Below, piece by piece: positions 14,399 through 64,000 of a stretch of 64,000 nt of DNA. Under the pieces are notes generated by a model that worked only from the letters and a program-made list of their open reading frames with translations, was not told the origin of the DNA and did no database searches. Positions within the stretch are counted from its first letter, which is position 1; each line of letters begins with the position of its first letter. The translations under genes and the position numbers were made by a program. The stretch is from Physcia stellaris (lineage: Eukaryota; Ascomycota; Lecanoromycetes; Caliciales; Physciaceae). The stretch spans positions 212,179-276,178 of the forward strand of contig JABSSW010000057.1 of assembly GCA_018902385.1 (NCBI GenBank), given 5' to 3'.

Positions 14399-14551
14399 TG
14401 TTACAGGTATGTAGGATGCAACGTGCTTATATTCATGATAATATTATCTATCGTACATGTGATGAATGTGAATTATTGTACAGAGTTTGCACGTTAGCCT
14501 ATAATAGAATAACGCTTTGACATTGTCTTTGATAATAAATTTATTTCAACA
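14399..14551 (-). repeat. Copia LTR (3' LTR in element orientation), weakly mutated copy
   Basis: This 153-bp LTR begins TGTTACAGG and ends TTTCAACA. Compared with the partner at 19483-19635 it keeps several CC, CT, GG and AG steps that the partner has lost. It differs at about 11 positions, all transitions. It sits at the outer edge of AT-rich block A. The adjacent CGAAAAAAA on the minus strand (14552-14560) is a plausible polypurine tract. Confidence 0.9.
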
Positions 14552-15036
14552 TTTTTTTCGAATTTGCAAAAATATAAAATCATGATGTTTAATTCATTTC
14601 GAGCATGTCGATAAATCGTTAATATTTGAACGAAAATAAAAATTTGATGAAATCGTCGATTGACATAATGTCGATCGTTATATATTTGAATTCAATGCGA
14701 TTTTTTTTTAATTTCGTTTTTTATATAATGATATACGATATCGACGTGCTTGATGCGATCATGATGTATTAAATTTTCATTGAATGTTTTGACGTTTTAA
14801 TTGTCAATATTTATCAATATTTTGACGTAATTGTTCGATTAATTTTGAATTCGTAAATCAACGAATAATTGTTTGAATCAAATAATTTTTTTGACGACGA
14901 ATGATATGATCATATATTCGACGACGCAAATAAACGTGATCACGATGAATTGAAATTTTAACATTCAATTTATCGAGTCGTCGTTTAATAAAAACAAATA
15001 TGTTTCGATGAATTTTTTAAAAATTTTGTCACGAAT

Positions 15037-15600
15037 TCAGTTTGCATCGCAATATGTTTCGATGTTTAATTTTTTGTTGAAATTATCGTCGTAAATTATG
15101 CAAAAATCGATCGTGAAATTGAAATAAATTATAACACGTTTGATTGTTTTGATATGATTAAAATTGAAATTTTGAACAAATCGATTGATTATGAAAATCG
15201 CATTCGTTACATTTGATTTGATTTTTATCATTGCAAACATGATTGAATTCATCATTGTTTGATATTGTTTGATATTTTGATCGATAATTTGATTAACGTT
15301 GAAAATTGAATCAAATGATTTTTTCATGAATGTTCGAATTGATTTCGCATTTTGTAAATCGAATTTTTTAACGACGCGTTGAATATATGTTTTTTGATTA
15401 AAACGAATTATGTGCATTTCGCGATTTTTGAAAATGATCATATCAAAATAAAAATTTATTGATTCAAAATCAATCATGTCGAAAACGTTATTGAATTTTG
15501 TTTTTGCTTTGTTAATCATGATTTTATTGAAAGCAATGATTTTGATATCATCGATTCATGTAATAATGATAAAATTTTTGAAATCAACATTCGTGACGAA
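15037..15600 (-). pseudogene. Copia reverse transcriptase, C-terminal part
   Basis: The 160-codon minus-strand frame 15519-15037 reads like the end of Copia RT and the link to RNase H: NVFDMIDF, then QKTYIQRVVKKFDLQ, and later NFNHIKTIKRVIIYF. Immediately upstream in the same frame is a stop codon TGA followed by IDDI. That is the YVDD-type catalytic Asp pair with the preceding Trp codon turned into a stop. The open part contains no Gly, Pro or Trp at all, which is what GG and CC loss predicts. It is not a functional gene. Confidence 0.85.
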
Positions 15601-17276
15601 TATGTTTTGATTCGCGTCGAAAAAATTGAAAACTAGTTTTTGTAAAAAAAATTCGAACAAACGTTTATATCAAAGTTTGAATGATTGTTTCAAATTATAC
15701 AATGTTTTGTTCAATTTGCAAATAATTTTGTCATTGTCACATTCAATCGAATATTTAACGTAAATATTTGAATCAATGAATTCGTATAAAAATGCAATTT
15801 TCACGTTCATTTGCTCAATTTTCAAATTCAAAAAAACGACAACGACGAATAAAATTCGAAAAATTATTGACTTGACGACGAAAACGAAAATTTGATCAAA
15901 ATCAATGTCGTATTGTTGTAAAAAATTTTTGACGCATCATTTAATCTTGTATCGTATCACAACGTCATCGACATTGCGTTTGAATTTGTAAATTCATTTA
16001 TCGTTCAACGATTTTCTTTCATCGAGCGTGAAATTTATTAAATTTCAAATGTGATTTTTCGATAAAAAATCGAATTTTTTTTTCATTGTTTTTAATCATT
16101 GTGAAAAATGAAAATTTCGTGCGACGTCGTTGTAATTATTTGATTTTTTCTCGTCGATCGTCAACATTGTTATGAATTTTTCGAACGAGAAAACGTCGAT
16201 GTTTTCGACGTAATCGATCAACAATGAAACGAAATTGATCGTATCAAATTCAACGTTTGCAATTGAAATTGATTGAAAATCAACAATGTTGTCGAACAAA
16301 ACAATTAAATCATTTGAATTTGAATTTCAATTTGCGAACAATTCACGCATTGCTAAATGAAACATCGTGAAATTGACAAAAATTATGACATTGTAAACGA
16401 TAAAATTCATAAAAAAATTTATTCGAGTTGTTTTTTGTTTGAACGCATTGTAACGTATTTTTGTGAAATTTTTTGAAAAATTTTTTGTTGCTGTGACGTC
16501 ACTGATTTTTGTATAATGATATTTGAAAATTTGATTTTGATATGTGATCGAATTTCAATGTTTTGAAAAATTTGAAATTGAATTTTTTGTTTTTTTGTAA
16601 TGAATTCAATGTGAATAACAGAAAAATTCATCATTGTTAAATTAACAATTGATTCGATAAAATTCTCATCGAATTCGATGTCAATTTTTGATGTTGATTT
16701 GTGATTATAAATATCGAAATTTTTGACGCGTTCGATTTTCTGACTAATCGATATGTAAATTCGATAAATGATGTCATCGTCATATTCGATGAAAATTTTT
16801 TTCGACGTTCGATTTAAAATGATTTTTGATTTTTTTGTTGATGACGACGTAGACGATTGATTCGAATGAATACATGTTCGTCAATTTCGAAAATTGTTCG
16901 TAAATATTTTCGAACGATGATTGATTTTTCAAATACGAAACTGAACGTCGATTTTTGATATACGTCATTGCATGTGTGATATCAAATCACAAAAAATTCG
17001 ATATGTTTTTCGTCAATAACGTTGTTTTGATCATGATAATGAAAATACGTTAATATGTTTCGATTACATCATTGACGTTCTGAACATTTGTTGAAATTGA
17101 ATTGAATTCAATGTCTTGATTATCAAAATAATTGATTGATTACGTGTTGCGAAATTCGTTGTCATAATTTGTACGTACGATTTTGACGTCAACATCGAAT
17201 TGACGTTTGATTCAATTAATGTATTTGATAAAACATGTAATCATTCGTGTTTGTTTTTGACGATGTATATTTTCGT

Positions 17277-17848
17277 TCAACGTGATTTGTCATCGATGAT
17301 ATTGATGTAATAACGTTCATTTTCAAAATTTTCGATCGTTATTGATATTAAATCAATATGAATAATATGAAACGTTTTTTCGACATGATGAATATTTTTT
17401 TTATTCGATTTTTTTTTTGTTTTGATTAATTTGCAAATATCGCAATGATTATTTTTGCAATCGTTTTGATAAAAATAATTCAATTTCTTTAAATATTGAC
17501 GTAATAAAAAAAAATTTATGTAATTCAAATTTCGATGTCATACGATGAACGACAATGATAATGTTGTTGACAATGCAATCATTTGATATGATTGCAATTT
17601 CAAAACGTATAATTCGTTGTTTTGCAAAAAAACATATTCGATTGATTTGTTTTGATGTTTAAAAATGTGATTTTCAATGTTTCAATAAACGTTTTGTTTT
17701 TCGAATGTTGATATTGACAACAAGTTTGTTGACGAATTTGACATGTAAAAAATTGACAAATCAATGAATTGATCATTTGCATTGTTGTAAAAAAACGAAC
17801 AATAATTTGATTATTTTTTTTTAACAATGAAACAAGTTTTGTTTGCAA
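17277..17848 (-). pseudogene. Copia integrase, zinc-binding and N-terminal core region
   Basis: The minus-strand frame 17528-17277 contains CDICKLIKTKKKSNKKN, the CxxC half of the integrase HHCC zinc finger, followed by HIDLISITIENFENERYYI and DDKSR, the start of the retroviral-type integrase core with its first Asp. The frame 17848-17600 just upstream belongs to the preceding polyprotein region. Both are fragments of one mutated pol reading frame. Confidence 0.75.
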
Positions 17849-19470
17849 TTACAACATGCTCGATGTGAAACATGAAAAAATGTATAAAATCTCGATTTTT
17901 GCACACGTGAATGTTGACGTTCGAGTTTGTGTATCACAACATATCGTTGATTGAATGATTAATGAACAGAATTTGTTTTCAAAATTCAATCAACGACGTT
18001 GATTGTTATTGTGAATTTTGAATTTTTTCAAAGTTTTGTTGTATGAATGATCAGACATGTTTTTGTTAATTCATTTTTTGAAAACGCTTTTTGAATAATT
18101 ATAATAACACTTTTCAAAATTATGTTTGATGAAATCGTTGTTTATGCATTTTTGATTGATGCAAAAAAAATCGATGTATTCAAATTTTGATGTATTGAAA
18201 CGAATACGTTTAAATTTTTCGAAACGATCAACGATCAATGCAATTGAATTTGATTTTGCTATCGTATCGATGATAATTTTAACGAAATTCAAAAAAAAAA
18301 AATTTCGATTTCGATGAAATTTGTGTTTTCGAAAATTCATTCGTCACGTTGACGAGTCACGAAATAATTGAAATGAATTAATTTGTGCATTTTGAACAAC
18401 AGAATATTTTGACAAAATACGTCGACAATGAGTTTCGAATCAATTTTTCGATAATCAATTGATTGTGTAATGATTCGACGATTTTGATGTAAAATTCGAC
18501 GTTTGTTAAAATGACAAATCGATCAATGAAATCGAAAATGATATCGACGAGAAAAACGAAAATATTTTTTTGAAACGTTTTGTTATTTTTGTTCAATAGA
18601 TCGATGATGTTGAATTCGTTATGACAATGATAAAAAAACGATGATTGACGTTCATTGCATTGAACAAATAAAAAAAAATTTTATTCAAATTTCGTTCGTG
18701 TTTCTCGACGACGATGATGAAATTCGTGAATTTAATTTTCGTTTTTGCATCGATGAAATTTCAATCGATATTTTTATCGTGTAAAAATTCGACGATAAAC
18801 ATTGATTTTATTGATAAATTGATTGTTCATTCAACGTGATTGACTCGAAAATCGTTTTTGACGTCGATTTTTCAATTGAAATACTGTTTTGATTTTGAAA
18901 TGAAAACGACAAAATTGTGAATGATGTTTGACGTAATCATTGTAATATTTAAGTTTGAAAATTTGAATCGTATAAATGAAAAAAAAAAAAAAAACGTATG
19001 TGACTCGTGAAATCGTATAAAACGTGTAAATTTCATGTCGTATTTGTTTTTTTTTTTTCATTTCGTAACAAATGAATTCGAAACATCGATTCGAAACAAT
19101 GACGAGTTCATTAAGTTATCGAATCGTGTATGTGAAATTTCGTGTTTCTTGAAAATGTTTTTATCGAAATCGAATGATCGATCGTGCGTTCGAATTTGAC
19201 GTTCGCTTAAACGATGAATGACGTTTCGATCGATCGACGTCGATATTCGTTTTTGAAATCTTTGAAAAACTAAATGACGATCGTTAAAAAAACAATATGC
19301 ATACTATTGACGATACTAAATGACGATAAATTCGTTGTGAATTCAATTTGATGTTTTCGAATTTGATCGTCGTTTAATTCATTAAAGATTTTTCGATCGA
19401 TGCATAAATCAACGTTTGAACGTTGTAAAATAATATGAATCGATTCGAATGATGTTTGACAAACATTGTC

Positions 19471-19482
19471 GAATTCATAATT
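19471..19482 (-). other. possible primer-binding site of the Copia element (half initiator-tRNA type)
   Basis: Directly next to the 5' LTR the minus strand reads AATTATGAATTC. The half-tRNA primer used by many Copia elements comes from the anticodon region of initiator tRNA-Met and would give a site beginning GGTTATGAG. The observed bases fit that site after GG-to-AA, AG-to-AA and CC-to-TT changes. This is inference from mutated bases; position and spacing are right. Confidence 0.4.
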
Positions 19483-19635
19483 TGTTATAGATATGTAAAA
19501 TGCAACGTGTTTATATTCATGATAATATTATCTATCGTACATGTGATGAATGTGAATTATTGTACAGAGTTTGCACGTTAATCTATAATAGAATAACGTT
19601 TTGACATTGTTTTTGATGATAAGTTTATTTCAACA
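19483..19635 (-). repeat. Copia LTR (5' LTR in element orientation), strongly mutated copy
   Basis: This is the partner of the LTR at 14399-14551, of identical length (153 bp), running TGTTATAGATATG to CAACA. Most differences are losses of GG/AG or CT/CC steps here relative to the other copy, with CpG and most CpA/TpG steps shared. Confidence 0.9.
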
Positions 19636-20042
19636 AATGTGTTTTCATTATGCTTTCGTAATTCGATTAATTGAATTGAGAAATTTCGAAATTCTTGCGT
19701 CGAAATGATTGCAATGACATAGATTTTGTCAAATTTTATTGCTATTTCTCGTGTCTCATAATGATTTCGAAATGTAAAAATTTTAATGTCAAGACATTTC
19801 AGTGCGTTTTGCAAATTTCTATTGACGTTACGCGTATTTTTCATCACGACGTTCGAAAATGAAATATTTTTCGTTTCGATTTTTCGAATTTCACGTCAAC
19901 ATTATTTGCACATCATCGATATACGCACACTCTATTCGATTTTGTAACATTTTCGAGAACATTCATCATGTTAACGCGAAGACATCGACTTCGTGAAGTC
20001 AACAGCATTCGCAATTCAATACATATTATTTTCTTTTGCAGT
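19636..20042. other. AT-rich spacer between two LTR elements
   Basis: About 400 bp of mutated sequence separates the Copia element from the non-autonomous element. A minus-strand frame at 19847-19578 spans the LTR edge and has no recognisable domain. By the target duplications, this was host or older repeat DNA before both insertions. Confidence 0.5.
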
Positions 20043-20196
20043 TGTTGAAGTATAATGAAAATTCAAAATCATGTTTTGATTATTATGACTATGAAGATGT
20101 AAATGTAAAATACATCGAATGAAAATGAGAAATTGCTCGCTAATATACAAAGACAATAAATTAGTTTCAATCGAATTCAAACTTGAATTCGCAACA
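20043..20196 (-). repeat. left LTR of the non-autonomous element, mutated copy
   Basis: It differs from the right LTR by about 26 transitions that all fall at CpT/CpC (AG/GG on this strand), plus a few changes in other contexts and small indels. All four CpG dinucleotides of the right copy are preserved here. Confidence 0.9.
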
Positions 20197-20569
20197 CTTT
20201 TTTTCAAATCGAATTCGATTGAAACGAATTGTTGTTCTTTTAATGAATTTTCAATTATGCTCTCGCTGATCTCGTTAAATTTTTAAAAACTTTGTGAAAA
20301 AACTGAAAAGAATGCTCAGCATCTTCGACAAATGAAATGATAAATCGATGCGATCAATATATATAATCAATTTTTGTTGATAGATGACGTTGTTGCTATG
20401 TATGTTTTTCATTACATAGTTTTTCTTTGTCAGTGATTGCTGGAACGTCATATCGCTCAGCTTCAAAATAAATATTTTGTACTCAACTATAAAGCATTGT
20501 ATGAAGAGTTTTCTAAAACGAGACAAAGCAAAAAAATACTCAACAATCATTGACAAAAATACTCGTGAT

Positions 20570-20835
20570 ATTGTATAAGTGATAGCTTGATGATTTAATT
20601 TGCAGCTTGATGACTGAGTAATGTATAAATGATAGCTTGATGACTCTGTAATTTGCAACTTGATGACTGAATAATGTATAAGTGATAGCTTGATGACTTG
20701 ATAATTTGTATAAATGATAGTTTGATGACTTAATTTGCAACTTGATGACTTTGTATAAATGATAGTTTGATGATTCTGTAATTTGCAACTTGATGACTTA
20801 ATGACTTAATTTGCAACTTGATGATTTTGTATGTA
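20570..20835. repeat. tandem array 1, units of about 50 bp
   Basis: Degenerate units alternate TGTATAAATGATAGCTTGAT and AATTTGCAACTTGATGACTT. About five units are visible, with variable length caused by loss or gain of short GATGACT-type segments. The array lies inside the non-autonomous LTR element. Confidence 0.8.
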
Positions 20836-21070
20836 TATGACTTATGATCAACAATGACTTTTAGTCAACAATGACTTGATATAAACATCAATGACTTTAA
20901 TATTAGCAATGAGATTGTATGATCAACAATGATACAGTCAACAATGACTTGATATAAACGTCAATAATTTTGATTTATCAACAATGACTTTGCGTATGAT
21001 CAGCAAATGATACAATCAACAATGACTTGATAAAAGCATCAATGACTTTGATTTATCAACAATGATGCAC
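20836..21070. repeat. tandem array 2, CAATGACTT-rich units
   Basis: Repeated modules such as TCAACAATGACTTGATATAA and ACATCAATGACTTTGATTTA recur about three times with a period near 100 bp. They share the ATGACTT word with array 1, so the two arrays probably diverged from common short repeats. Confidence 0.75.
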
Positions 21071-21075
21071 ATTTA

Positions 21076-21225
21076 TTCATGAATTGTTTCATTAGATCTG
21101 AATATGTTTCAATAGATTTGATATGTTCCAATAGATTTGATATGTTTCAATAAATCTGATAGATCTGATATGTTTCAATGAGTCTGATATGTTTCAGTAG
21201 ACCTGATATATTTCAATAAATAGTA
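21076..21225. repeat. tandem array 3, 19-20-bp units
   Basis: About seven degenerate copies of GATATGTTTCAATAGATCT follow one another. They differ mainly by C/T and G/A exchanges, consistent with the mutation process acting on the block. Confidence 0.8.
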
Positions 21226-21449
21226 AAATTTCAATGATTTGAATGTCTAGTGACTTGTATGCTCAAAACTCATTATAACAATGTTAATTACAATTGATAG
21301 TAACGAAAACGCGTTGCGTTGATGAAAAATTTTTGCTCGAAATGACAAATTGCGATCGTGAAATCAATTGCGATCGTGCATTTGTTGTTTGTTTGTAAAA
21401 AACGATGTGATGTTCATCGTGAGATTGCGACGCGTATAGCGCCGGACTC

Positions 21450-21874
21450 ATTTAGCGTGAAAAAGTTTTTTGCATTTTCTTGACATTTTTTTCAATTTTT
21501 TCTTTTTCAAATTTGTATGATAGTAATTTGAGAAAATTTTTCAATTGATGTTTCAATCATTTTTTCAAGCATATAAATCGTTGAAGTCTTAAATATTTCT
21601 GTATAGTTTTTTCTTGATGTTGCAAACATGTCTTTTCGCAAATCTTAAAATTAATTCTAAGTCTTGTTTGAGAGACATTGAATGAAAAATCGATAAAACA
21701 ACATCAAGAAACGACTATACAGAAGGAATTTTTATGACTTCAACGATTTATATGCTTGAAACTTTAGTAAAAACATCAATTGAAAAATTTTCTTAGATTA
21801 CTACCATACAAATTTGAGAGGAGGGGCCGAGAGAAGGATGCCAAGAAAATGCAAGAAACTTTTTCACGCTAAAT
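21450..21874. repeat. 425-bp foldback (inverted repeat with ~170-bp arms)
   Basis: The left arm starts ATTTAGCGTGAAAAAGTTT at 21450; the right arm read on the other strand from 21874 starts ATTTAGCGTGAAAAAGTTT and continues similarly to TTTCTTGATGTTG. The central loop is about 75 bp (21625-21698). The left arm is strongly T-enriched where the right arm keeps CC, CT and GG steps (for example the C-rich stretch complementary to 21818-21840). The C-to-T change therefore stops inside this structure. Confidence 0.85.
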
Positions 21875-21878
21875 AACC

Positions 21879-22036
21879 TGTTGAAGTATAATGAGAGTTC
21901 AGAACCATGTCTTGTTATTATTATGACTATGGAGTGTGTAGGTGTAGGATACATCGGATGAAAGTGGGAACTGCTCGCTCACATGTACAGAGGGAATAAG
22001 CTAGTCCCAATCGGGCTCAGGCTTGGATTCGCAACA
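21879..22036 (-). repeat. right LTR of the non-autonomous element, nearly unmutated copy
   Basis: This copy of the LTR keeps its GG, CC, AG and CT steps. It serves as an internal reference for what the left LTR looked like before mutation. It forms the right border of AT-rich block A. Confidence 0.9.
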
Positions 22037-22041
22037 GCAGT

Positions 22042-36147: not shown

Positions 36148-36887
36148 AGTGAATACCTAGAGAAACGTAGGAGTCGTACAGGAGAATAGGGGGGCTATGT
36201 CAATTAAGTCCCGAGAGAAGAGGAGTTGAAGGAGCAGGACAACGAGCGACGAAGGGGCGAGCTTCTTAAGCACGGGTTGGAAGCTGGGTTCGCGTCGCAG
36301 TGGCAAAGATGCACATTGAACAGGTGAGGAGGTTTAGGCGGAAAAGCGAGGAACATAAAGCGGCTTTGCTTAGGCTTCCCCATCTTGACTGGCTACGGGC
36401 GAATATGATGACGTTTGACTCCCTGTTAGACTTGACGGACTCCTTGTTAGATTGACGGATGCGTGACAAGCCGGATCTTAGGATCTAACGCTAGTGTTAG
36501 CGCGATCTTGGTAGATCGGCTAGATCTCGGCATTTACCTTATGCAAGATCGCGCCAATGACATTGAGAGAGTACACGTGACAGCGCGGAACCATGTCCGT
36601 CCGCTTGGCGATCTGTCGCTACACGTTCGCGCCTTCCTGCATACCGCGATAGCGATAATCTGTCAAGTATTCTTAGCTTGTTGTTTTTGTAGTACTTTGT
36701 GTTCATACATGATCACTCCAATATACTAATAATAATACCCATCAGCATCAAATTAGCGAGGCTAAGGTGGACTTTCAAACATTGATGTAATATCAGTGCA
36801 TTCAATACACGTGGTCATCCAGGACTACTCTCCTAACCACCGCGCCTGATTTGGATTTTTCGGGTCAGAGAAACAGTGCTACTCGTT
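36148..36887. promoter_or_regulatory. divergent promoter region between FAD oxidoreductase and TDP1, with an 11-bp inverted repeat
   Basis: The two genes are transcribed away from each other, so this 740-bp stretch must hold both promoters. It contains a perfect inverted repeat, GCGCGATCTTG at 36500-36510 and CAAGATCGCGC at 36544-36554. Just before it lies CTAACGCTAGTGTTAG, which is also self-complementary. These could be a small foldback insertion or a binding site. Nothing here is coding. Confidence 0.5.
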
Positions 36888-41580: not shown

Positions 41581-41666
41581 CCGGGTCTAATCTCGGTACC
41601 TCGGGTCTAATCTCGGTACCTCGGATCTAATCTCGGTACCTTGGGTCTAATCTCGGCTCCTCGGGT
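41581..41666. repeat. 20-bp tandem repeat at the edge of the AT-rich block
   Basis: Four and a fraction copies of TCGGGTCTAATCTCGGTACC follow each other exactly. Copies differ by single G/A or C/T changes (TCGGATCT, TTGGGT, GGCTCC). The array lies 150 bp upstream of the monooxygenase start and just before the composition drops. Confidence 0.9.
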
Positions 41667-41699
41667 CGGAGTCGAAAGTTCGGCCGAGATCGATGAGTG

Positions 41700-47972: not shown

Positions 47973-48088
47973 AAAACGTGAAAAATTGATTGAAACAAAA
48001 CGTGAAAAATTGACTGAAACAGAACGTGAAAAATTGATTGAAACAAAACGTGAAAAATTGATTGAAACAGAACGTGAAAAACTGACTG
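47973..48088 (+). repeat. 24-bp tandem repeat, in-frame (TKREKLIE-like octapeptide)
   Basis: Four full copies at 47973, 47997, 48021 and 48045 and a partial fifth at 48069, with only A/G and T/C differences. The period is a multiple of three, and one plus-strand frame reads a charged octapeptide TKREKLIE repeated, ending at a stop soon after. This could be the residue of a coiled-coil protein or a simple minisatellite. Confidence 0.85.
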
Positions 48089-48099
48089 TAAATATATTT

Positions 48100-48440
48100 T
48101 GACTGATGAAAATGTGAAAATATTTGATAATCGTCGCATAATGTTTATATATGCAAATAAGAAATCAGTATTTTAATGAAGCGAATTTGACTGAATGATT
48201 TAACGATTAGAACTGTAAATAAGCACTTTTCATTCAGAAAATCGCGAATTCGAATCGTATGATGAACAACGTGTTGAACAATCGAATGAATTATCTCATG
48301 ATTATAAACACAAAACGCAAATTCTGACGCGAATGAAAATTTTCAAAATAGTCGAATTGATAATTTGAAATCACTGCTAACATGTGAAATATAACAGACA
48401 ACAAACATAATTTTTTTTGTTGTTGTTGTGATCATGATGA
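48100..48440. repeat. dispersed repeat segment, inverted relative to copies at ~60.4 and ~61.1 kb
   Basis: The words TTTATATATGCAAATAA, CTGTAAATAAGCACTTTTCA and AACAGACAACAAACATAA recur on the opposite strand near 60,740, 60,680 and 60,475, in the same relative order. Weaker copies lie near 61,440, 61,380 and 61,165. This indicates a repeat family with at least three copies in block B. Confidence 0.6.
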
Positions 48441-48640
48441 AAAATCGCGCGAAATACGAAACAAAAAGAAAAAGCGATTGAAATGTTGACAAAACAACGA
48501 CGATTGCAAACAAAAATGACAAAACAAAATCGAATCAAGATGATGTGTGAATCGAAAAAAGAAAATAATAAAAATATCGCTCGAAAAAATAAAAACGATC
48601 TAGTCGTATTTGACGAAATGAATGATAATAAAAAAGATGA

Positions 48641-48862
48641 AAAAGAAAAAAAAATCGAACAGATGTTTCGACAGATTTCTTGTGATGAATTGCAAAAGAA
48701 ACGCAACAAATCGTAAAATTGCTAGTAATTAAAAAGAAAAAAATTGCAAAAAACGAAAAAAAAAAAAAACGAATCGAACAGATGTTTCGACAGATTTCTT
48801 GATTTGAATTGTAAAAAAAAAAAAAAAACGCAACAAATCGTAAAATTGCTAATGACTAAAAG
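48641..48862. repeat. about 115-bp imperfect tandem duplication
   Basis: Two copies share ATCGAACAGATGTTTCGACA, GATTTCTTG and ACGCAACAAATCGTAAAATT in the same order, separated by poly-A-rich joints whose lengths differ (up to about 16 A). Confidence 0.75.
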
Positions 48863-49139
48863 AAATCAGCTTCATGTATTGATATAAAGAATGATTTATT
48901 TCGTCGTCATCGAAAACATGATCGCACGATCACAATTGAACGTGTGTGAAATTTACGACGTGATGAAAATTCAAAAACGCGTTGAATCGTGTCAGAAATA
49001 CGTTTTTGAAATTCAGAATTTCGAATTACAACTCATCGTCATGATGAAAAAGACATTGCAACAATGTAATGTAATGATTGCAAATTGAAAAAAAAATAAA
49101 TAGAAATGAAAAAAAATTGCGAAAACGAATAATAGATTA

Positions 49140-49355
49140 TGTAAAATGCTATGCAGAAATATAGTACTACTACATAATTACACGAGAATATCGAAATGAG
49201 AAACAAATACAAGAAATCTGCAAAAACATATGTAAAAATTTGATTTCTTGAATGCGTCAAGTCGAATTTCGACTCTAACATTCGATGTGATAAAATAACG
49301 ATGTTAATTCGATGTTAATTTTGTCAGATGTTGAATTCGATGTACGCTCGTCACA
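49140..49355 (-). repeat. Gypsy LTR (3' LTR in element orientation)
   Basis: It starts TGTAAAATGCTATGCAG and ends GTACGCTCGTCACA. It aligns end to end with 56535-56752; differences are mainly transitions, found in both copies. Confidence 0.92.
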
Positions 49356-50739
49356 TTATTTTTCGTTTTTTTTTCAGTTTCGTCTCGAAGCGATCAACTG
49401 AATTCGTCTTCTTTTTTAATGATGAACGTTTTGCGCGATTTAGATGCGCTGTTGAATGATGTTGAATTGAATGAATGATTGATGAAATGAAAAATAAATT
49501 CGAAATCTTTGTGAAATCGATTTCGCTCGCGAGATCGATTCGTTAAAAATCGTGAAAACATCAGATCGATTAACGATGAAATGAGCAATCTGATCATGTT
49601 AGTAAAATCATCGTAACAATGTTTAACGTCTTGATATTTTCGCGTATGCGAGAGTTCGTGTGTACATTGCATGCGATAAAGCGTGAATGTAATGAATGTT
49701 CTGAAAAATAATCAATTCATACGTTTCGTAAAAAGTAATTTCGACGAGCATTAATAAATAAGAAATTGTGAATTTGACTTAGCGCGTCAGCAATCTTGAG
49801 AATTCTTGCAACATCAGATTGATATCACGAGACGAGCAGTTTGAACAAGTCGATAGAATTTTTATCATCACGATTAACGCGTTGATGTTATCGCATATAC
49901 GACGTTTGATTCGTACATTGCATTCAGCGAAATATGCATGTATTAGATTTTCTGAAAAGCAAGTATTTTGAACGAATTTTACAAATAGCTTCGCGTGTCA
50001 TTAGTAAGCAATTGAGAATCTTGTTGAGGAACTCGTAAATGTTCGAACTTTTCTGACAATCTGTTGTCAATTCATATCATTGCATGACATTTTACATTAT
50101 TATTTATTGTTCAGTAAGATTTGACGACAATTTCTGAAAATGTTTCTGACACGATTCAACTTTTCATGCGACGTAAATTCTGACAATAAGTAACGCGAAA
50201 TAGCATGAAAGCGAAAAATCGAAACAAAAACTATTTGAATCAGTTTGACAATGAGTTGTAAATGAATTCATGTTGACGTTTTCTGATCGATCATAGACGA
50301 TGTTTATAATTTAGTCATTTCGTAAAGCAGATTTCGCTGTTTTCGAACTAGTTTCGTAAAAACATTCACAATGTTTTGAGCATTTTGAAATTCGTCATCG
50401 TCGACATAATATCAGATTCGATCATGAAAATTTCAATTCGATCATTTGCAACGATATTGAAAACGATAATAATGATATCGAGATTGCAATATATCATCGA
50501 GTTTTCACTCAAACATTTCATTTGCAATAACTGATTTTGAAAAATCGTTATGTTGTTTTTTCAACGAATTTCTAGGATTTTTTTCAACAATCAGAAATGA
50601 AAAATTGAATGAATGTGCATGTCGTCGAACAATTTCAATTCATAAACGAGATTTTTTTTTTGATCACTTTGTATGAATTCAGTTTTTTGTCGTTCAGCTT
50701 GTTTGACGAGCGAATCGTTTTAATATGACGACGATTCAA

Positions 50740-51540
50740 TCAAACGTAATTTTCTATTTCAAAGCTTATCGGAAAACGCGATTTGTTGATTCGAGCAATC
50801 ATTTTTTGTTTTGCATCGACAGCATTGATTTTGACGTATTCGATGATACGATTCATTTTTTCGACAATGAATTCGTTTTGTTTAATCAGCAGACGTTTTC
50901 TAGTGATTTCGTAATCATTTAGATTTGATTCAAAGATCATTCGAGAATGATAACTCTTATTAGTGAAAAATGAAATGAGTTCGATGATTGTTGAAACATC
51001 GTTGTTGTCAGCGAATTTCATGATATTTATTCAATCAACTCAATCGTCTTGACGATAATTGCAATACAAACGCAATCGAATTTCGATATTTTGATTCGTT
51101 CGCTCGATTTGATCATCGATTTCAAATTGAAAAGCAGTGAACAATTTACATTTGATTTTTAGTCGCTTACAGAAAACTTTTCAAACGCGATTTACAAATT
51201 GATCATCTCGATCTGAAATGATGAAAAAAGTAATTCATGAGTACGAAATACGTAATGAAACAATATTTTGACACAGATTTGAATTGCTAAATCATCGTCA
51301 TCGATCACACAAGAAACGTAATGACGTTTTTTGATCAAACGATCGATGATTGTACAAATGACATTGTTATTTCTGAAGTCAAATAATTCAATTATGAAAT
51401 TCATCGATATATCAATTCATCGTTGATTGAGAATCGACAATGAAATTAACAATTCGTGACGATCATCGTGTGAAAATTTCGATCGTTGACACTTGTGACA
51501 ATTACGAATGTAACGTTTAATGAATAATTTCATATTAAAT
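50740..51540 (-). pseudogene. Gypsy integrase
   Basis: At about 51,480-51,515 the minus strand encodes RYIRNCHKCQR, the CxxC half of the integrase HHCC zinc finger. The frame 51404-51192 reads MNFIIELFDFRNNNVICTII, then DRLIKKRHY and FRTHELLFS, the integrase core with its first Asp. The frame 51021-50740 (KFADNNDVSTIIELISFF, ARINKSR) covers the C-terminal part of the core and the linker to the chromatin-binding end. Stops between these pieces break the frame. Confidence 0.85.
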
Positions 51541-51649
51541 CAATAGTAATAGCGTTTAATGAATTTTTCAATACGATTCATGCTCGAATGTGCACAAAAG
51601 AACTGATCATGAACATCACGAATTATTTCAATCATGAGATTTAATTTGT

Positions 51650-52505
51650 TTGATATTCATAGATTTTTGTTTTTAAAGAGAATTTCGTTTCGATCGAAGC
51701 AATTTTGCAAATTTATTTTTTCGTTGATAATTTGATCATCGACTAGAGTTTGACGATAATTAATGCAATTTTCGTCGTTTCGATTGATTTGCATGACGCG
51801 TTCGTACAAATCGTTTTGAACGTCAATCGAACATAATTGCAATCGAAAAAATGACAACAGAATTTGTTTTTTATAGAATTCACGTTCGTCGTTTTCGACG
51901 AAACGAAATTCAAACATTTTAATCAAAACATTTGTTTTGACGTTTTTGATTTCGAATTGATACTGAATTTTAATGTTGTAATTCGTCAAAATCTCGACTC
52001 AACGTATCTGACGAAAAATAAATTTCTTGTTTGTCATAAAGATTTTCAGATTTTTGTGATCGATATAGATTTCAACTGATTCGTCGATGTTTTCGAATTC
52101 TGATCTTCAATGCTCCAAACATCGAATAATGACCAGAAATTTCTTGTCATATATCTCGTAATTGCATTCGGCAGAAATCATCTTTTTGCTGAAAAAAGCC
52201 ACCGAATGAAGCATTCCGTCGTCGTCGTATTGGGATAGAACTTCATTTAAACACCAATCTGAGAAATCGATTTCCAAAATAGCCTTACGATTACGATCGT
52301 AATGTCGAAAAATTGAAACCTCGATTATTTGCTTTTTCAGAGCTTCGAATGCTTCGTTAGCGAAATCGATTCATTCGAAATCAGTTATTTTTTTTTTTGA
52401 TTATTCGAGTTAAAAATTTGACGAATTTCGAAAACGCTTTAATGAAACGTCGATAAAAATTGCAAAAATTCACAAACGTTTACATTTTCTTGATGTACGT
52501 TGAAC
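51650..52505 (-). pseudogene. Gypsy RNase H
   Basis: Read from 52,370 to 51,680 on the minus strand, successive pieces match the RNase H domain that follows RT in Gypsy elements: the FSDWCLNEVLSQYDDDG region, SAECNYEIYDKK, and YIDHKNLKIFM with the catalytic Asp-His. TGA codons stand at two conserved Trp positions (after CLEH and after FRQIR). Confidence 0.75.
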
Positions 52506-52509
52506 GAGT

Positions 52510-53394
52510 TCAATTGACGATGTTTTGCATTTTTTTGAAATTCATGCGTAAATCTTTTGTCGATAATATGATTTTTAGAAATGAGATTTTCGTCTGAAAG
52601 AACTCGCATTTCTTGATATCGACCTGAAGATCAGTCTCTTTCAGCTTTTGAAAAACTTGAGTGAGATGTCGTTCATGTTGCTTTCGGATTTTGCTGTAAA
52701 TGAGAATATCATCCAGATACACTTGACAGAAATGATTAATATATTCAAACAGCAAGTCGTTCATGTAGTGCTGCCAACTGATCGGGTCATTGATAAAATC
52801 GAAAGACAGTACATGATACTTGTAGATGTCTAACGAACATATGAAGATAGTAAGATTTTCGCTTTGTGAATCCATTCGGAATTTATTGAAAGTCGATATA
52901 ATATTCAATTTGAACAAGAACTTACAATCGATAACTCTAGCAAGAGTCTCTTCAATCAACGGAATAAAATAACTATTACGTTTGATTATGACGTTCAGCT
53001 TTCGATAATTCACGCACAGACGAAGCTGTTCATTCGACTTGACGACGAATAGGATAGACGAGGCATAGGGCGTCTTGCTTGAGCTGATAAATTCTTTTTG
53101 AAGATTATCGTGTAGATATTTCTGAAGAGTCTCGAGTTTCTTGGGCGATAGGGGATAGACTCGGCTTCGAGGCAGTTGATCCGAATCTTCGGTCAACTCG
53201 ATTTTGTGATCGTAAAATTTATGAGAAAATAGTTTGTTTGTTTTTTTCGAATTGAATACATTTTCGAAACGTTTAAGAAATTCAGAAATTTTACGCTTTA
53301 ATTTTTCGACGACTGTTTTCATGATTTTGAGAACTTTTTTGAAATTCAGATCAGAATCAGTCTCTATTTTAGCTAATTTTTTTGACGTTGTCAA
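52510..53394 (-). pseudogene. Gypsy reverse transcriptase, 294-codon open fragment
   Basis: The longest open frame in the AT-rich DNA. It contains the RT landmarks in order: LPRSRVYPLSPKKLETLQKY, LRLCVNYRKLN (fingers), FKLNIISTFNKFRMD (first catalytic Asp replaced by Asn in the D-L box), SWQHYMNDLLFEYI, and the catalytic VYLDDILIYSK. Gly residues expected around FGL and FLG are replaced. It stays open because CpT/CpC mutation rarely creates stops except at Trp codons, not because it is selected. Confidence 0.9.
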
Positions 53395-53805
53395 TAATTT
53401 CGTTCAGTTTTTTCATGATCAATGAAAATGTCTTGACTTCTTTTTTTTTTCTTTAGATTTTGCTAAAGATTGAAAAATCGTCGCGTCGATGAACGTCACG
53501 TTCAATGATATATCAGAATCGAAATTTTGTTCGTCATTTTTCATTCTCGAGATCGTGATTTTAGATCGTCGATTAAATCGACGTGCAAATTTTTTGAAAA
53601 TGTCAAATTTTCTTATCGAAACGTTAATTAGATTCGATTTTTGAATTTCACGTATGATTTTTGTTTTTCGTTTTTTTTTTGAACGACTTATTCGAAAAAT
53701 ATTTCTTGTTTATTTTTTCAATGACATATTTGAAATCTGAGTTCAAGAATTTTTCTATTGATTGTTCGTTTTTTTTCGAGTCTTTTACAGTAGAACGAGA
53801 AGAAG

Positions 53806-54306
53806 TTATTCGAAAAATGTCGAAATTGATCGTCTTTGCAATATTTGATACTTCTGAACGTTTGTCGATGAAAACGACGTCAAAAATCGTTCAAAAGATG
53901 ACAAATAGAACGTTCTATTCGATTGCTTGTTCGAATTAAATAACTTTTGAAATATAAACGAACGTGAAAGCAGAAAAAAAATTTCAACGTGATCACAATG
54001 ATTCGAAGTGAAATAGCATTCGTCGTTGATCATATTGAAAATCATTTCATGTTTGTTCATTCAAGATTTTTTTAGAATCAGCGAATGTTGTTCTATTTTG
54101 ATGATGAACAATGAAACGAAAAGTTTTGAATGATTTTGTATCGTCATTTTGAACAATATTTGATGAATAATAGATTTGATTTTCGTTTTTTCGAAATTAA
54201 AAATTTTTTTAAATCGCGACAAAGAAATTGAAATTAATTTTAATTTATGACATTTTTTGCGCAGTTTCTTCATTAATGAAAACGTATTCAGAAATATCGA
54301 TATCAA
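53806..54306 (-). pseudogene. Gypsy protease
   Basis: Two frames in phase, 54306-54061 and 54060-53806, are separated by one TGA. The second continues at NKHEMIFNMINDECYF. The stretch FLNTFSLMKKLRKKC is the region after the protease Asp-Ser/Thr-Gly motif. FVSLFIIKIEQHSLIL then stop-MNKHEM corresponds to the conserved end of Gypsy proteases, where a Trp precedes MxxHG. Confidence 0.75.
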
Positions 54307-54627
54307 TTAAATCATGAATCATGATTTTTCTATCATTCGAAGACAGATTTATCTTCTTAATTAAAAATTTACAATGAAATTCGTTAAAGATGTTATGCTG
54401 AAAGTCTCGTGAACAAACTTTGATAATTTTCTTCGCGTTTTCGAAAAAAACTGTTAATTTTTCGATTCAACGTCGAATGTGATTGAAACATCGAAATTTA
54501 TATTATCGTCGTCGATGCTTGAAGAGTTACCGTTGATCAAAAAAATGATCTGCAGATTAAGCATTTCTTGCTTGACCAAATTGTCGATTCAATTATCAAG
54601 TAATTTGTCAGAAGTGCATTTCTTTCA

Positions 54628-54999
54628 TCAATGATCTTCTTCATCACATTTTCGGCATTTCTTCTTCAGTTTAGACAGATTAAAACGAGCAGTGACAATT
54701 TTATACGCTTTTTTCTTTAAAAAAGTCGTATATTTAGTTTTCAAGTCTTTTATGTATTGCTCATTGCGACGAACTCGAGAACTTAGCTGACTGATCGATG
54801 ACCTGCCTCTAGTGAAAAAAATGTTGATTTTAACATCGTTGTTTTTGATGCGACGATGCTTGTTATTCATGATTTGAAATTTGCGAAAATAATCGTCAAG
54901 AATTTTATAATCGTTCAAAACAACGTCGACATGTTGAAATTTCGTTGTGATTTTTTTTTCGAAATCGTGAATTTTGTTCGTTTCATTTTTTTTGAGCAA
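54628..54999 (-). pseudogene. Gypsy gag C-terminus with zinc knuckle
   Basis: A 123-codon frame ends KKKCRKCDEEDH, the start of a CCHC zinc knuckle (C-x2-C-x4-H) with the usual Gly replaced. The preceding segment is Lys/Asn-rich. It lies upstream of the protease in element orientation, as expected for gag. Confidence 0.7.
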
Positions 55000-56337
55000 T
55001 TGATTGATTAAAAAAAAAATTCGAAATAAAACTCGTTGAAAAATTCAATGAATTTCATTTTCAAATCATCGTATTGACGACGAACGTTTCGAAAATGATC
55101 AACATCGATATAAATGTCGTTCAAAAATTTGAAAATTTGATCAATTGATTCGAAAAAATTGCGTTTAATTTCGCGTCGAGTATCGATATGTTTCGCAAAT
55201 TTTTTTTTTGTTCAGTCAATAATTGCAAAGATTTTTTTGAATTTATCGACGTATCAATCGAAATTGACTTTCAATTTATCAATGCATTTATTTTTTCAGA
55301 TATCGTAACGAATGTATTCGAATGTATTGAAATTTTTATGTTCAAAGAAGATAGAAAAATCAAGATGTCGAGACGAGCGCGTTTTAAAATCAAAACGAGA
55401 TTTTTCAACAGAAAAATCAAATTGTTTGAACGAGCGCTTTTTAAGCTCAAAACGAAAATTCTTTTTCGAAGTTAGAAAATTTTTCAGACTTTGATAATTT
55501 AACGATTTTTTTTTCGTTGTTTATTTTTATTTTCACGAACACGTTGAGTCTTGAAAAGTTCATTACATTGAGTTTGAACAGCAGAGACTTCGACTTTGAC
55601 GACACGCAAAATTTCGTTAATTTCATATTTTTCTTTATTATGATTCGAGATTTTGATTTTCATGTTTTTCACTTGAAGATTTCAGATCCGAATGACGATC
55701 ATTTCTCGATTTCGATCTCGTCGAAAAATTTCGAAAATAATTCATAATTCGTCGAAATGACTGACGATCATTGATTGAAATTGTTGTTTCGATGAGATGT
55801 TTATCGAATTAACGATTTTGAGCGATTCGTTTTCATCAAGTTCATCGTCATTTTGACTAGAGTTTAAGACAAGAAAGATGTCGATGATATGTTGCTCGAA
55901 ATTTGTGATTATTCGATCAGAAACATACACGTTTAATTGTGTGATCTCGCTAAGCAGTAATCGATCTTTCAGATTGATTTCGGAAAGAAAACTTGAAGAA
56001 ATCATGACTGTGAACTGAGATCGAATAATTGTTGAAACAGAAAAAAAAAAATGAACAAAACAATGATTTAAATAGATCTTGATGATTGAATTTCACTCAA
56101 AATGACAGATTCGATGTGATGTTGAGTGAAATTTCTAGATGTTTGCTTATGATGAAGCAAATGAGTGTTGAATAAAAATGTTTGTTTGTTAATGTGTTTT
56201 CTGATAATCTGATTTGATGATTTTCTGATTTTCAAACACGAATGCTTCGTCAAAAGTGATAAAGAGAAAAATTTGTTGTATTGTAAATCGAGACTATCGC
56301 GTAGATTCGTCTGTTTTGAACGTTCTTTAAGACAAAG

Positions 56338-56455
56338 CAAACGAGTTTATTATGTTTCGTTTTTTTTTCAATTCACAACGAGTTTATTATGTTTCGTTGT
56401 TTCGTTGAATGATCAAAATCAAATTGAGTTTATTATGCTTTTATTCGTTCATTGA
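56338..56455. repeat. short repeats in the Gypsy 5' leader
   Basis: The word GAGTTTATTATG occurs three times (two longer copies ACGAGTTTATTATGTTTCGT) between the 5' LTR and gag of the Gypsy element. Confidence 0.7.
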
Positions 56456-56534
56456 ATTTAATTGTAAAAAACTTTGTTTATTTGAATGCTCGCGTATCAT
56501 GAACGAGCATGAAGAAAAAATGATTTCGATATAA

Positions 56535-56752
56535 TGTGAAATGTTATGCAGAAATATAGTACTATTACATAATTACACGAGAATATCGAAGTGAAAAGCA
56601 AATACAAGAGACTTGCAAAAACATATGTAGAAAATTTGATCTTTTGAATACGTCAAGTCGAATTTCGATCTTAACATTCGATGTGATAAAATAACGATGT
56701 TAATTCGATGTTAACTTTTGTCAGATGTTGAATTCGATGTACGTTCGTCACA
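56535..56752 (-). repeat. Gypsy LTR (5' LTR in element orientation)
   Basis: It starts TGTGAAATGTTATGCAG and ends GTACGTTCGTCACA, followed by the target duplication GATTA. Partner of 49140-49355. Confidence 0.92.
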
Positions 56753-56757
56753 GATTA

Positions 56758-60399: not shown

Positions 60400-60780
60400 T
60401 TTTTTTTCAATTTCGTATTTTGCGCAAAATATTCGAACTTTCAAAATCACAACAACAAAAAAAAAATGATGTTTGTTGTCTGTTATATTTCACATATTAA
60501 CATTGATTTCAAGTTAGTCAATTAAATGTCGAAACGCGAATTCGATAATCAAACATTGTTATAACGTTTTCATTGAATTCAAAACTTTATTGTTCGATTT
60601 TTTCAATTGTAACATCAGATGTCATCAACGAATCGAATTCGAACATTTTTTGAATGAAAATTTATCATTTACAGTTTAAATCGCAATTTTAATCACTAAA
60701 TTAACAAATCGATTTCATTTCGTTAAATCATTGATCATTTATTTGCATATATAAACACGATACGTCATTCAAAAATTTTA
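60400..60780. repeat. dispersed repeat, copy 2 (direct relative to copy at ~61.1 kb)
   Basis: Contains TTGCGCAAAATATTC, TGTTGTCTGTTATATTTCACA, ATCATTTACAGTTTAAATCG and ATTTATTTGCATATATAA in order. The same order of related words follows about 700 bp downstream, and on the opposite strand at 48.1-48.4 kb. Confidence 0.65.
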
Positions 60781-60782
60781 CA

Positions 60783-61110
60783 TGTTTTTTTTTTTTTTCA
60801 ATTTTTTTTTCATTTTTTTTTTCAATTTTTTTTACAAATTTCAGAAGTTGCTAATACATGATTTTTTTATTTTTTTTTTTTTTTTTTTTTCTTTAATTTA
60901 TTTTTTTTTTTTTCAATTTCTTTTTTCAACAAAGTTCAAAAAGTTTGTCGATACATTTTTTTTTCGATTTTTTCAATTCATTCGTCAATTTTTTTTTTTT
61001 TTTTTTTCGATTAATATATTCAATTTCATTATTATCGTGTAATTTTTTTTTTCATATTCAGCATTGTTCAGTCAAACATTGTTCATTTTTTTTTTTCAAT
61101 TTCGAATTTT
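60783..61110. repeat. poly-T / pyrimidine-derived low-complexity tract
   Basis: Runs of 8 to 21 T interrupted by CA or CAA dominate this stretch. It looks like a former CT-rich microsatellite or pyrimidine tract in which nearly every C before T or C has become T, leaving only C before A or G. Confidence 0.6.
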
Positions 61111-61480
61111 GCGCATCGAAATTTTGATTTTCAACATTGTCACAACAATCAAAAAAGTGATGTTTTCTGTGATATTTCACATGTTAATCGAATTTCAAAT
61201 TATCAATTCAATTTTTGAAATTTTGTCATGTGCTTCAAAATGAATATTGTTTCATTGAATCGACTTGTTATTTTCGAAATTATCACAAAAATAAATTTTG
61301 AAAATAATCATCATTGCACACGCGATTCGAATTCGCAATGATAAATGAAACAATCATGAATGAAAATTGTTTATTTACAGTTCGTATCGTCAAATTAAAC
61401 AATCAATTTCATTTCGTTAAAACATTGATCATTTATTTGCATATATAATTTAAACAACATTCAGAAATTTTTGTATTTGT
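61111..61480. repeat. dispersed repeat, copy 3
   Basis: Carries TTTGCGCATCGAAATTTTGA, TGATATTTCACATGTTAA, TTGTTTATTTACAGTTCGTA and ATCATTTATTTGCATATATAA-like words in the same order as copy 2, with moderate divergence. Confidence 0.6.
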
Positions 61481-64000
61481 GTCAATCATCGTTTCACGAA
61501 AATTAACATTTAACATTAAACATATTCATTTAATTTTATTTAGTCGTTTTATTTTATCGTCACATTTTCGCAAAAATAATGTTTATTTTTCAAATTTTTG
61601 AATTTGTTTATCGAAATCATTTGAAATTTGTTCATCATAAAATATCAAAAATTCTATCATAATTGTCATGCATGATTTGATTTTTGAAAAATTGTTTTTC
61701 GAATTGATCGAATTATAAATGAACAAAATGATTGTTTCAAACGAAAAAAAAATGAAATGAAAAACATTCGTTTTGTAATGTTAATATTGAAATTTTAAAT
61801 TAAAATATTTGAATTTAACATTAAAATGTGAACATTATATAATACAATGAACATATTTTCAATAACAATTTTTGCATTTCAAATTGAAATTTTTGTATTC
61901 AACAAATCAATAAATTTATTTTTATATCGAATGTTCATATTTCAAATAATAATATCAAAATCTAAATAATCAATAATGAAATCATTATGAACAATATTCA
62001 CATTCATGTCTCGAATGTTTGAATTTTTGATTTCATTTTTTTCATTCAAAGTTTCGATAATCACATTCATGCAATTCTAATTTTTTCAGTCTTTTCATCT
62101 TTTCGTGAAGAAAAGCAATCTGAATCACATACGAAAATCATGTGCATCGTTTTCAATGACAATTTTTTGAAATGTAAAGATGTTTGATGTCGTATCTTGT
62201 TGAATTTTCAAAGAATAATGACGTATTGCTGATAACGTTATGCGAATATAAAATGTATGATGTTTGATTTTCGAAATAACGAATTTCAACAAAGAAGAAA
62301 ATTCGTTTTCAAACATCAAATAACACGAAGAATAAATATCATGATGTGAATTTGTTTCACGTATTTTGCATTTTCATGTAAAATCATAATGATTCATAAA
62401 ATTCGCATACATGTATGATTTTAATCGTACGTTTTAACATTTTCAAAAATAATAATATCGAACGTCGAAAAATAATTGTATTGATGATTTTAATTGTTGA
62501 AAAAAATATTTTTCAATCGAAATTTATTTATGAATACATGTTATAATATTATCAACGTCGACGTGATTGTTTTTGAACATTTTGTTTTTTATTAAATTTT
62601 TAGTCAAACAATATATTTTTCAATTTTTTGAAAAATTGAATTATTTAATGTTCATTTTCGAGTCATGATTTTCGTCATTCGCGTTTTTATAATTATCATC
62701 GTTGAACAAATGATCGAAATCGTTGTTTTTTCGAAAACATTATCAAAATTATCGAAATTGTCGTTGAACATTTTTATTGATTTTTCAATCATCATTTTAT
62801 TGCGTGTGACATTTTCATTTCGATTATCGCGATTTCGATTATCGCGATTTCGATCATCGCGATCTCGTTTTAACGTATTTGAGTTTCAATCGATTGCGTC
62901 ATTTTGACAATTTTTTTCGTGTAATTTTGATTTCGATCAATTTCGTTTTTTTGTTTCGAATCGTCATATTTGAAAATTTCGATTCATGATCAGAAAAATT
63001 TCGATCGATGAATTTTGATTTTCGTTTTTGATTCGAATTGTTATGTCGTTTTTGCTTTGTGATTTTCGATGTTTGTTTTTCAATTCGATAATTGCAAATT
63101 TTTTGTTTGTCATTTTAATAACGTTAACGTCGTCAACATCGAAAATATGATCAACATTCATGACATTGTCAATATCATCGACGTGATCAAAATTAAAAAC
63201 ATTGTTTTCGTCGTGAACAAAATTGAAAACATTATCATTATCGAAAACACGAACAAAATTCGAAAAAACATCGTTATTCGAATGATCAACAATTGAATTT
63301 TCGTCATTATCGTCAATATCGAAAACATCGTCATCATTGACAACAAAATCGTCATTTCGATCAACATCGACGATATCATTATCATCAAAAACACGATTAA
63401 AATTGAAAGCATCGTTTTCATCGTCAATCGATAAAACGAAAAAACGAAACGTGATTGAAATCGATCGCGATTATTTCATAACACGTATTTTACGTCAAAA
63501 ACGTTTTTTGATGTCAAAAATATTTCGAATTCGAATTCGAGTTCGAGTCGACGTGCGTGATCAATGAATTTCAAAAACGAATAATATCAAATTTCGATAT
63601 AATGAAAAAAATTTAATTTTAACAATTCTCAAATGAAAATGAAACAATTCAAACGAAAACAACGATGATTTTCAAATCGATCGATTTCGAATTGTTTCAA
63701 AATTTCGTATATTGTGAACACACGAAATATTTGTTGTGATATTGCGAATGTCAATACACGATTCAAAAAAATATGTATTCGATTTTTTTTTGATTTTGAT
63801 AAATCGTCTGTATTGTTTTTCGATTTTGTGCAAAACGCGAAATGTAATTCGAATAAACAGATTGCGATAGAATTGTCGATTAAATTTCGTGATTGTTGAT
63901 TTCGTTCGAATTTATTCAACGATTTCGAAATAATTTTCATATTGTTTAAGAAATAAAGTTTTCAAACGTTTGATTACAAACTTTATATTGTCAATGAAAC
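61481..64000. other. AT-rich block B, last part, to window end
   Basis: Mutated repeat DNA continues past the window edge. The minus-strand frame 62319-62125 and plus-strand frames at 62665-62907 and 63337-63567 look like fragments of old coding sequence but show no domain. Around 62,818-62,866 GCGATTTCGATTATC-like 15-bp units repeat, and 63,120-63,430 is rich in ATCGTC/GAAAACA words. Confidence 0.35.

Follow-up and report, generated by a model that had tools for sequence, protein, structure and literature searches.

In Neurospora crassa and other Pezizomycotina, repeat-induced point mutation (RIP) turns C to T on both strands of repeats and leaves mutated copies between normal flanks; in Neurospora, CpC is its least preferred context. 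Classical RIP prefers CpA and enriches TpA (PMC2621366, PMC12543289), and a 2025 survey of 1,239 genomes describes the CpA preference as shared by RIP-like defences (PMC12543289). Other contexts are also on record: N. crassa Tad1 shows more change at CpT than at CpA, and S. nodorum repeats have lost CpC among other dinucleotides (PMC2621366); there are also reports of CpT predominant and CpA second in M. oryzae and B. cinerea T4 (PMC4352252), and CpT dominant in alignments from RIP-capable control fungi (PMC7882544). The DNA considered here, a stretch of 64,000 bases from the lichen fungus Physcia stellaris (the window), carries retrotransposons of families that show the same C-to-T change on both strands, in some copies between normal flanks, with CpC and CpT as the targets. 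That the long repeats of this species have been mutated by a RIP-like process acting on C before a pyrimidine (CpY), on both strands, is proposed with considerable confidence. The best reading of its specificity is an inverted one, CpC > CpT >> CpA >= CpG, and nearly every CpC and most CpT of the transposons appear to have been turned to T. In the features tested, the process is RIP-like except for its target dinucleotide.

The P. stellaris genome has been described as 46.57 Mb in 184 scaffolds with a GC content of 43.32%, in a paper whose available passages do not mention RIP (PMC7513301); the assembly surveyed here has 43,974,083 bases in 147 contigs, the window being positions 212179-276178 of contig C57. 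GC falls to 0.21-0.33 at 14.5-22.0 kb and 41.7-64 kb of the window, against about 0.42-0.56 outside these blocks. The first-pass annotation had drawn a single feature across 14535-64000, which has to be divided: from about 22.0 to 41.7 kb the GC content is normal, at least one gene can be recognised, and the DNA lies outside the CpY-depleted feature. Within the AT-rich blocks (2-kb tiles), the ratio of observed to expected counts (O/E) is mostly 0.00 for CpC (maximum 0.45) and 0.10-0.79 for CpT, with CpA at 0.97-1.51 and CpG at 1.08-3.92; CpC is ordinary in the GC-normal parts (O/E 0.75-1.06). Against expectation from base composition, positions 14552-20196 hold no CpC (200 expected), 94 CpT (552), 642 CpG (200) and 768 CpA (552), and positions 42000-64000 hold 45 CpC (837) and 818 CpT (2197). 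Surviving cytosines in both blocks stand mostly before G or A, as had been claimed, and the line offered as an example, 51061-51120, does contain exactly 7 CpG, 4 CpA, 1 CpT and no CpC. The elements concerned are the following.

14398-19635, minus strand: Copia-type element with long terminal repeats (LTRs) at 14398-14551 and 19482-19635, CpY-depleted; recognised by self-comparison, an RVT_2-like relic frame and its mutation spectrum.
15040-15555, minus strand: open relic frame of the Copia polyprotein, 172 residues with 0 Pro, 0 Gly and 0 Trp.
20043-22036, no strand assigned: short LTR element, its left part heavily CpY-mutated; LTRs at 20043-20196 and 21879-22036.
21450-21874, no strand assigned: nested palindromic repeat of 0.42 kb, partly mutated; recognised by self-comparison and genome copies.
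41750-64000, no strand assigned: second AT-rich, CpY-depleted block, its left edge near 41.7 kb, reaching the end of the window.
49122-56752, minus strand: Gypsy-type LTR element inside the second block; LTRs at 49122-49355 and 56517-56752.

The RVT_2-like relic frame of the Copia element falls 1 bit below the Pfam cut-off, and the element has at least 38 genome matches including the window copy (35 of 81 candidates scored). The Gypsy label is that of the first-pass annotation; an RVT_1 relic frame lies at 52510-53394. The palindromic repeat is 75% identical to its own reverse complement and has well over ten genome copies; most of those read lie where GC is normal and have been mutated less than the LTR elements have.

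The LTR pairs record the change directly. Between the two LTRs of the short element there are 28 C/T differences, 13 at CpC, 13 at CpT, 2 at CpA and none at CpG (Fisher p 7e-9 against shared cytosines); the earlier count of about 26 CpY transitions holds, and its statement that all were of this type gives way to the two at CpA. For all 28, the T or A sits in the inner LTR. The pair is so clear because the outer LTR, at the block edge, retains CpC and CpT and the inner one is mutated; the same holds of the block's other edge, the outer LTRs (14398-14551, 21879-22036) keeping both dinucleotides and the inner ones having no CpC. In the Copia pair 9 of 11 differences are at CpY, just as first counted, and the other 2 at CpA (p 1e-4). 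The pair at 49122-49355 and 56517-56752 gives 17 such differences: 14 CpT, 2 CpA and 1 CpG (p 1e-7). Mutation weakens towards the outer ends of the repeat block, as the outer LTRs at the edges of the first block show.

A wider spectrum comes from 11 mutated copies of two LTR families, each family with one GC-normal reference: six copies of the short element were compared with L013 (GC 0.435), and five of the Copia element (the window copy and 4 of 37 other listed matches) with a fifth match, L038. Pooled, C has become T at 1351 of 1464 CpC (0.923), 1314 of 1840 CpT (0.714), 164 of 2369 CpA (0.069) and 60 of 1446 CpG (0.041), that is, at 2665/3304 CpY and 224/3815 C before a purine (CpR). A distinct CpY specificity, as the first-pass annotation had proposed, is what these copies display; CpA change is far from dominant in the two families (7%, with CpG at 4%, against 92% for CpC and 71% for CpT). 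Among the Copia copies, change runs from 160/170 to 168/168 for CpC, 128/219 to 206/218 for CpT, 12/276 to 29/278 for CpA and 6/228 to 10/222 for CpG, with T-to-C at 7-15 per about 1100 sites and 2-5 transversions per about 2 kb. Allowing a background of 1%, the rate at CpT is 25-45 times that at CpA, and the rate at CpC 1.5-3.3 times that at CpT (4 computable copies), giving relative rates of about 1.5-3.3 (CpC) : 1 (CpT) : 0.02-0.04 (CpA) : 0.01-0.035 (CpG). The short-element copies range over 0.78-0.90 for CpC, 0.42-0.83 for CpT, 0.02-0.13 for CpA and 0.06-0.10 for CpG, with 6-64 transversions. Both strands are heavily mutated in all 11 copies (CpY 0.52-0.94 on the plus and 0.64-0.98 on the minus strand; in Copia, 99/140 to 129/137 and 189/249 to 245/249). 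The base before the cytosine has a small effect (CpT 0.64 where it is G, 0.73-0.77 where it is any other base), as has the one before that, and the base at +2 matters only at CpCpC (208/255, against 0.94-0.95), a reduction expected if the second C often mutates first, leaving the slower CpT.

The direction of change is given by the Copia reference:

G000:C20:567802-573052 (L038, L070, L071): GC-normal Copia copy, GC 0.447, flanks at GC 0.47 and 0.49.

Its cytosines are followed by A, C, G and T in proportions of 0.31, 0.19, 0.25 and 0.25, so that the bias is absent from this unmutated copy, and its LTRs are identical (154/154, 0 differences). The copies read therefore gave neither of the two results that the first-pass annotation had named as refuting it, dominant CpA change or the same bias before mutation. 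Identical LTRs and GC-normal flanks mark it as a young insertion not yet mutated, which supports C-to-T as the direction; as a recent insertion, it also indicates that the Copia family moved after older copies were mutated. It is 79% identical to the window Copia; among the matches listed, the others longer than 100 bases are at 91-96%.

Some mutated copies have GC-normal surroundings. The short-element copies L009, L010 and L011, at GC 0.22-0.27, lie between flanks of GC 0.43-0.52. Of many more copies of the palindromic repeat, 13 were read for GC and flanks and 8 compared with L017 for the spectrum. Twelve of the 13 (0.21-0.46 kb matched) retain GC 0.31-0.40, most flanks being at or above 0.40; GC is 0.20 in L018, whose neighbouring DNA is AT-rich, and 0.27 in the window copy, which sits inside its block and has 36 of 54 CpC and 13 of 49 CpT changed. 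Homology length would fit the lower mutation of most short repeats in GC-normal DNA better than age alone, although one copy in such DNA (L019, 26 of 53 CpC changed) counts against a strict length limit.

The signature extends beyond the window. Sampling of 20 contigs, in twenty 5-kb pieces whose round positions were set in advance, yielded 200 tiles, each of 500 bases. In all 23 tiles below GC 0.32, CpC makes up 0.00-0.01 and CpT 0.00-0.13 of cytosines; 175 tiles at GC 0.40 or above have ordinary dinucleotides, and the two at 0.32-0.40 also look ordinary. One AT-rich piece (L054, 5 kb) is near exhaustion, with 603, 0, 544 and 2 cytosines before A, C, G and T and a GC of 0.230. CpY-only mutation of L038 has a predicted GC floor of 0.251 (A:G 0.55:0.45), and L054 reaches about that floor. 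DNA derived from transposable elements in Cladonia is mostly at GC 10-20% (PMC12542154); mutation restricted to CpY would hardly bring comparable DNA so low.

The customary indices do not register any of this. TpA/ApT is 0.36-0.58 in the AT-rich tiles of the window (2-kb tiles), against more than 0.89 under classical RIP, and 0.32-0.82 in the 23 AT-rich sample tiles. None of the 127 one-kb tiles of the window is flagged, either by RIPper-like limits or by the older pair of TpA/ApT >=0.89 and (CpA+TpG)/(ApC+GpT) <=1.03. The older pair is passed by 7 of the 200 sample tiles, all at GC 0.42-0.57 and none AT-rich. Nor was a relic of CpA-type RIP seen in the sample: no tile of the 200 combines GC below 0.40 with TpA/ApT above 0.82.

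Several observations weigh against the process as proposed, or against its generality. All 23 AT-rich tiles belong to just 3 of the 20 pieces (10 to L054, 10 to L061 and 3 to L066). A GC-normal reference is available in only two families, with one copy in each, and L038, young as it is, is not intact over the 2 kb that were read, where stops leave no open stretch longer than 210 codons. Two short-element copies, L012 and L014, each have one AT-rich flank (0.34 and 0.30). In the Gypsy family (the copy in the window plus 7 of the 28 further matches listed), values of 0.14-0.30 for CpA and 0.13-0.16 for CpG include old divergence; all 8 copies are mutated and the family lacks a GC-normal reference, so it sets no direction. 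CpA change also climbs in the heaviest copies (29/278 in L040, 26/198 in L010), which makes the CpY rule a strong preference rather than an absolute one.

The consequences for encoded proteins are distinctive. Over the 210 codons of the longest open Copia stretch of L038, none of 9 Pro, 3 Gly and 1 Trp codons is kept in any of the five mutated copies. Stops among these copies come from TGG>TGA (5) and CAA>TAA (1), in a stretch holding 12 CAA, CAG or CGA codons; with Pro, Gly and Trp lost and few stops gained, the protein has been changed chiefly by missense. A protein search with the relic frame (E 1e-5) returned ten ENA proteins, 65-97% identical, all without Pro and Gly, 8 without Trp, and all retaining Gln. 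This suggests that other fungi may carry the same CpY signature; the bait itself is without Pro, Gly and Trp, so retrieval was biased towards such proteins.

As to mechanism, the trigger, as in RIP, would be duplicated DNA recognised during the sexual cycle, and the mutator would be a RID-family DNA-methyltransferase-like enzyme that reads a 3' pyrimidine rather than a 3' adenine. The first-pass annotation had advised looking for RID- and DIM-2-type methyltransferases, and a PF00145 profile search of the genome gave four matches in three genes, two of the RID family and one DIM-2-like:

RID1, contig C5: 934 residues spliced, 932 annotated, carrying SPPCQFFSDAHT and LEQT (P0121).
RID2, G000:C6:790906-792561 (L001): 508 residues spliced, carrying SPPCQSFSPAQS and MEET.
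DIM-2-like protein, contig C3: open frame of 1118 residues, matching PDB 9bap at E 4.6e-188.

PDB 9bap is presumably Neurospora DIM-2. The predicted frames of the RID-family genes are open once one and two introns are removed, and both proteins, inspected by eye, have the catalytic motifs PCQ, (Q)xRxR and GNxVxP; RID1 is 100% identical to hypothetical protein G7Y79_00005g016670 of P. stellaris over residues 640-934, the part searched. These two genes would be the main suspects, and RID2 the first, since its segment after PCQ differs from that of nearly the whole family: AQ..KP.DFEDKQAV, where the family has AHT..G.DD..N.AS. The segment is readable in 195 of 213 family sequences, 169 being AHT-type and 26 FED-type, and all 26 of the latter are among the 32 closest hits to RID2 (one search). 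In a maximum-likelihood tree of 42 rows, Neurospora RID not included, RID2 falls together with sequences from Heterodermia and from ENA (96/92), outside the RID-side clade, in a part that lacks resolution and also holds Aspergillus DmtA; the FED label takes two changes on this tree, and a single origin remains compatible with it. RID2, or its segment after PCQ, may set the CpY rule. The fuller proposal is that a lichen-fungus lineage evolved a dedicated RIP enzyme with a new target rule, RID2, which mutates C before a pyrimidine; its repeat defence would then escape TpA-based indices and would ruin proteins mostly through loss of Pro, Gly and Trp, less through nonsense at Gln and Arg codons. 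This proposal is tentative, with somewhat less than an even chance of being right.

One possibility is that the process is the same and RID1 is the CpY mutator. RID1 sits in the supported RID-side clade (97/97), and in Neurospora new repeats undergo RIP only if rid is there (PMC11969663). It also carries SDAHT where many others carry SPAHT, but this state is common to Usnea, Alectoria and Teloschistes, and the strongly different segment after PCQ belongs to RID2, not RID1; RID1 is a possible mutator, and a less probable one than RID2.

A RID-family mutator might also be dispensed with: a DIM-2-type enzyme could methylate CpY in heterochromatin, with ordinary or enzyme-promoted deamination following over generations and no RIP burst. 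The genome does encode the DIM-2-like protein listed above, a review gives Neurospora DIM-2 a CpT preference (PMC13297926), and Z. tritici Dim2 promotes C-to-T change in mitosis (PMC8016269). The contexts of the Z. tritici enzyme are different, however: CG, then CA, then CC, with almost no CT (PMC8016269). CpG is the least mutated context in the P. stellaris copies, and short repeats in GC-normal DNA are mostly less mutated (L019 being the exception), both of which speak against this route. It is considered unlikely.

Far less probable still is editing of retrotransposon complementary DNA (cDNA), or of exposed single strands, by an APOBEC/AID-like or other cytidine deaminase. Such editing would fit LTR elements hypermutated from C to T, and there are 8 PF00383 matches in the genome, presumably ordinary metabolic and tRNA deaminases. 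Editing of cDNA is expected to mark one strand, and APOBEC/AID-like deaminases read the preceding base; here both strands are heavily mutated, the preceding base matters little, and the palindromic repeat, which has no LTRs, is mutated as well. The APOBEC_N profile found no match in the genome, a weak negative, as 14 controls gave none either. The unusual deaminase envisaged in the first-pass annotation is therefore unsupported, and APOBEC-type editing is rejected as largely refuted. A supposed RIPped deaminase gene on contig C64 ('4 TGA') was also rejected: the region is GC-normal with ordinary dinucleotides, and the stops are probably intronic.

Ultraviolet (UV) damage at dipyrimidines, or a general drift of heterochromatin towards AT, can be dismissed as practically negligible: CpC and CpT are dipyrimidines, but so is TpC, and TpCpA (58/836) and TpCpG (18/496) change no more than other CpR, T-to-C changes are rare, as are transversions in Copia, and mutated copies lie between GC-normal flanks. 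On the pooled counts, classical CpA RIP (whose indices likewise fail here) and decay of methylated CpG, the least mutated context, are rejected too.

Three further observations concern the window itself. A tyrosyl-DNA phosphodiesterase gene with a ubiquitin interaction motif occupies 36876-38429, between the two mutated blocks. At 8597-9329, in GC-normal DNA (CpG O/E 1.28 in that tile), there is a long inverted repeat, imperfect and unrelated to the finding. One kilobase of the second block, 48001-49000, has an AT skew of 0.289, a strand-asymmetric composition.

The systems closest to that of P. stellaris share part of its specificity. As in N. crassa, where RIP depends on RID and DIM-2, its genome has both RID-family and DIM-2-like genes. 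In Magnaporthe oryzae, Botrytis cinerea and Sclerotinia, alignments make CpT the main or second target of RIP, as here, and the fungi of that study have a RID/Masc1-type gene in one or two copies (PMC4352252). Anisogramma anomala has CpT-rich RIP and two rid genes (PMC10998396). In M. oryzae, B. cinerea, S. sclerotiorum and A. anomala, however, CpT is accompanied by CpA, unlike in P. stellaris. In Colletotrichum truncatum, also CpT-rich, a family is biased to CpA or CpT, one family showing the two together, and TpA/ApT is 0.93-1.68 (PMC6180176). The main texts of PMC4352252, PMC10998396 and PMC6180176 do not mention CpC at all; in the passages of open-licence papers that were searched, the signatures are CpA, CpT and CpG, and none is described as RIP led by CpC.

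More distant systems also turn C to T with a preferred 3' base, as P. stellaris does: Tuber at CpG and, among basidiomycetes, Microbotryum at TpCpG and Rhizoctonia solani AG8. In AG8, C/T polymorphisms are most closely spaced at CpC over the whole genome (214 bp, against 370 at CpG), and its authors describe a bias to CpG between nuclei that affects genes as well as repeats (PMC4014442); in P. stellaris, CpG is the least mutated context and GC-normal tiles are ordinary. Methylation induced premeiotically (MIP), which involves Masc1, and Aspergillus DmtA offer another parallel, RID2 lying near DmtA in the tree and having the MEET motif in common, but the CpY change in P. stellaris is permanent mutation and RID2 is without the AHT-type segment after PCQ.

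If the proposal is true, surveys scoring TpA/ApT would label such genomes RIP-free, and the RID family gains a natural variant in specificity. RID has shown no detectable methyltransferase activity in vitro (PMC13297926), and its action on DNA would become testable through segment swaps between CpA- and CpY-type enzymes. Set beside the CpA preference described as shared by RIP-like defences, P. stellaris appears to be a clear exception whose own rule is strong.

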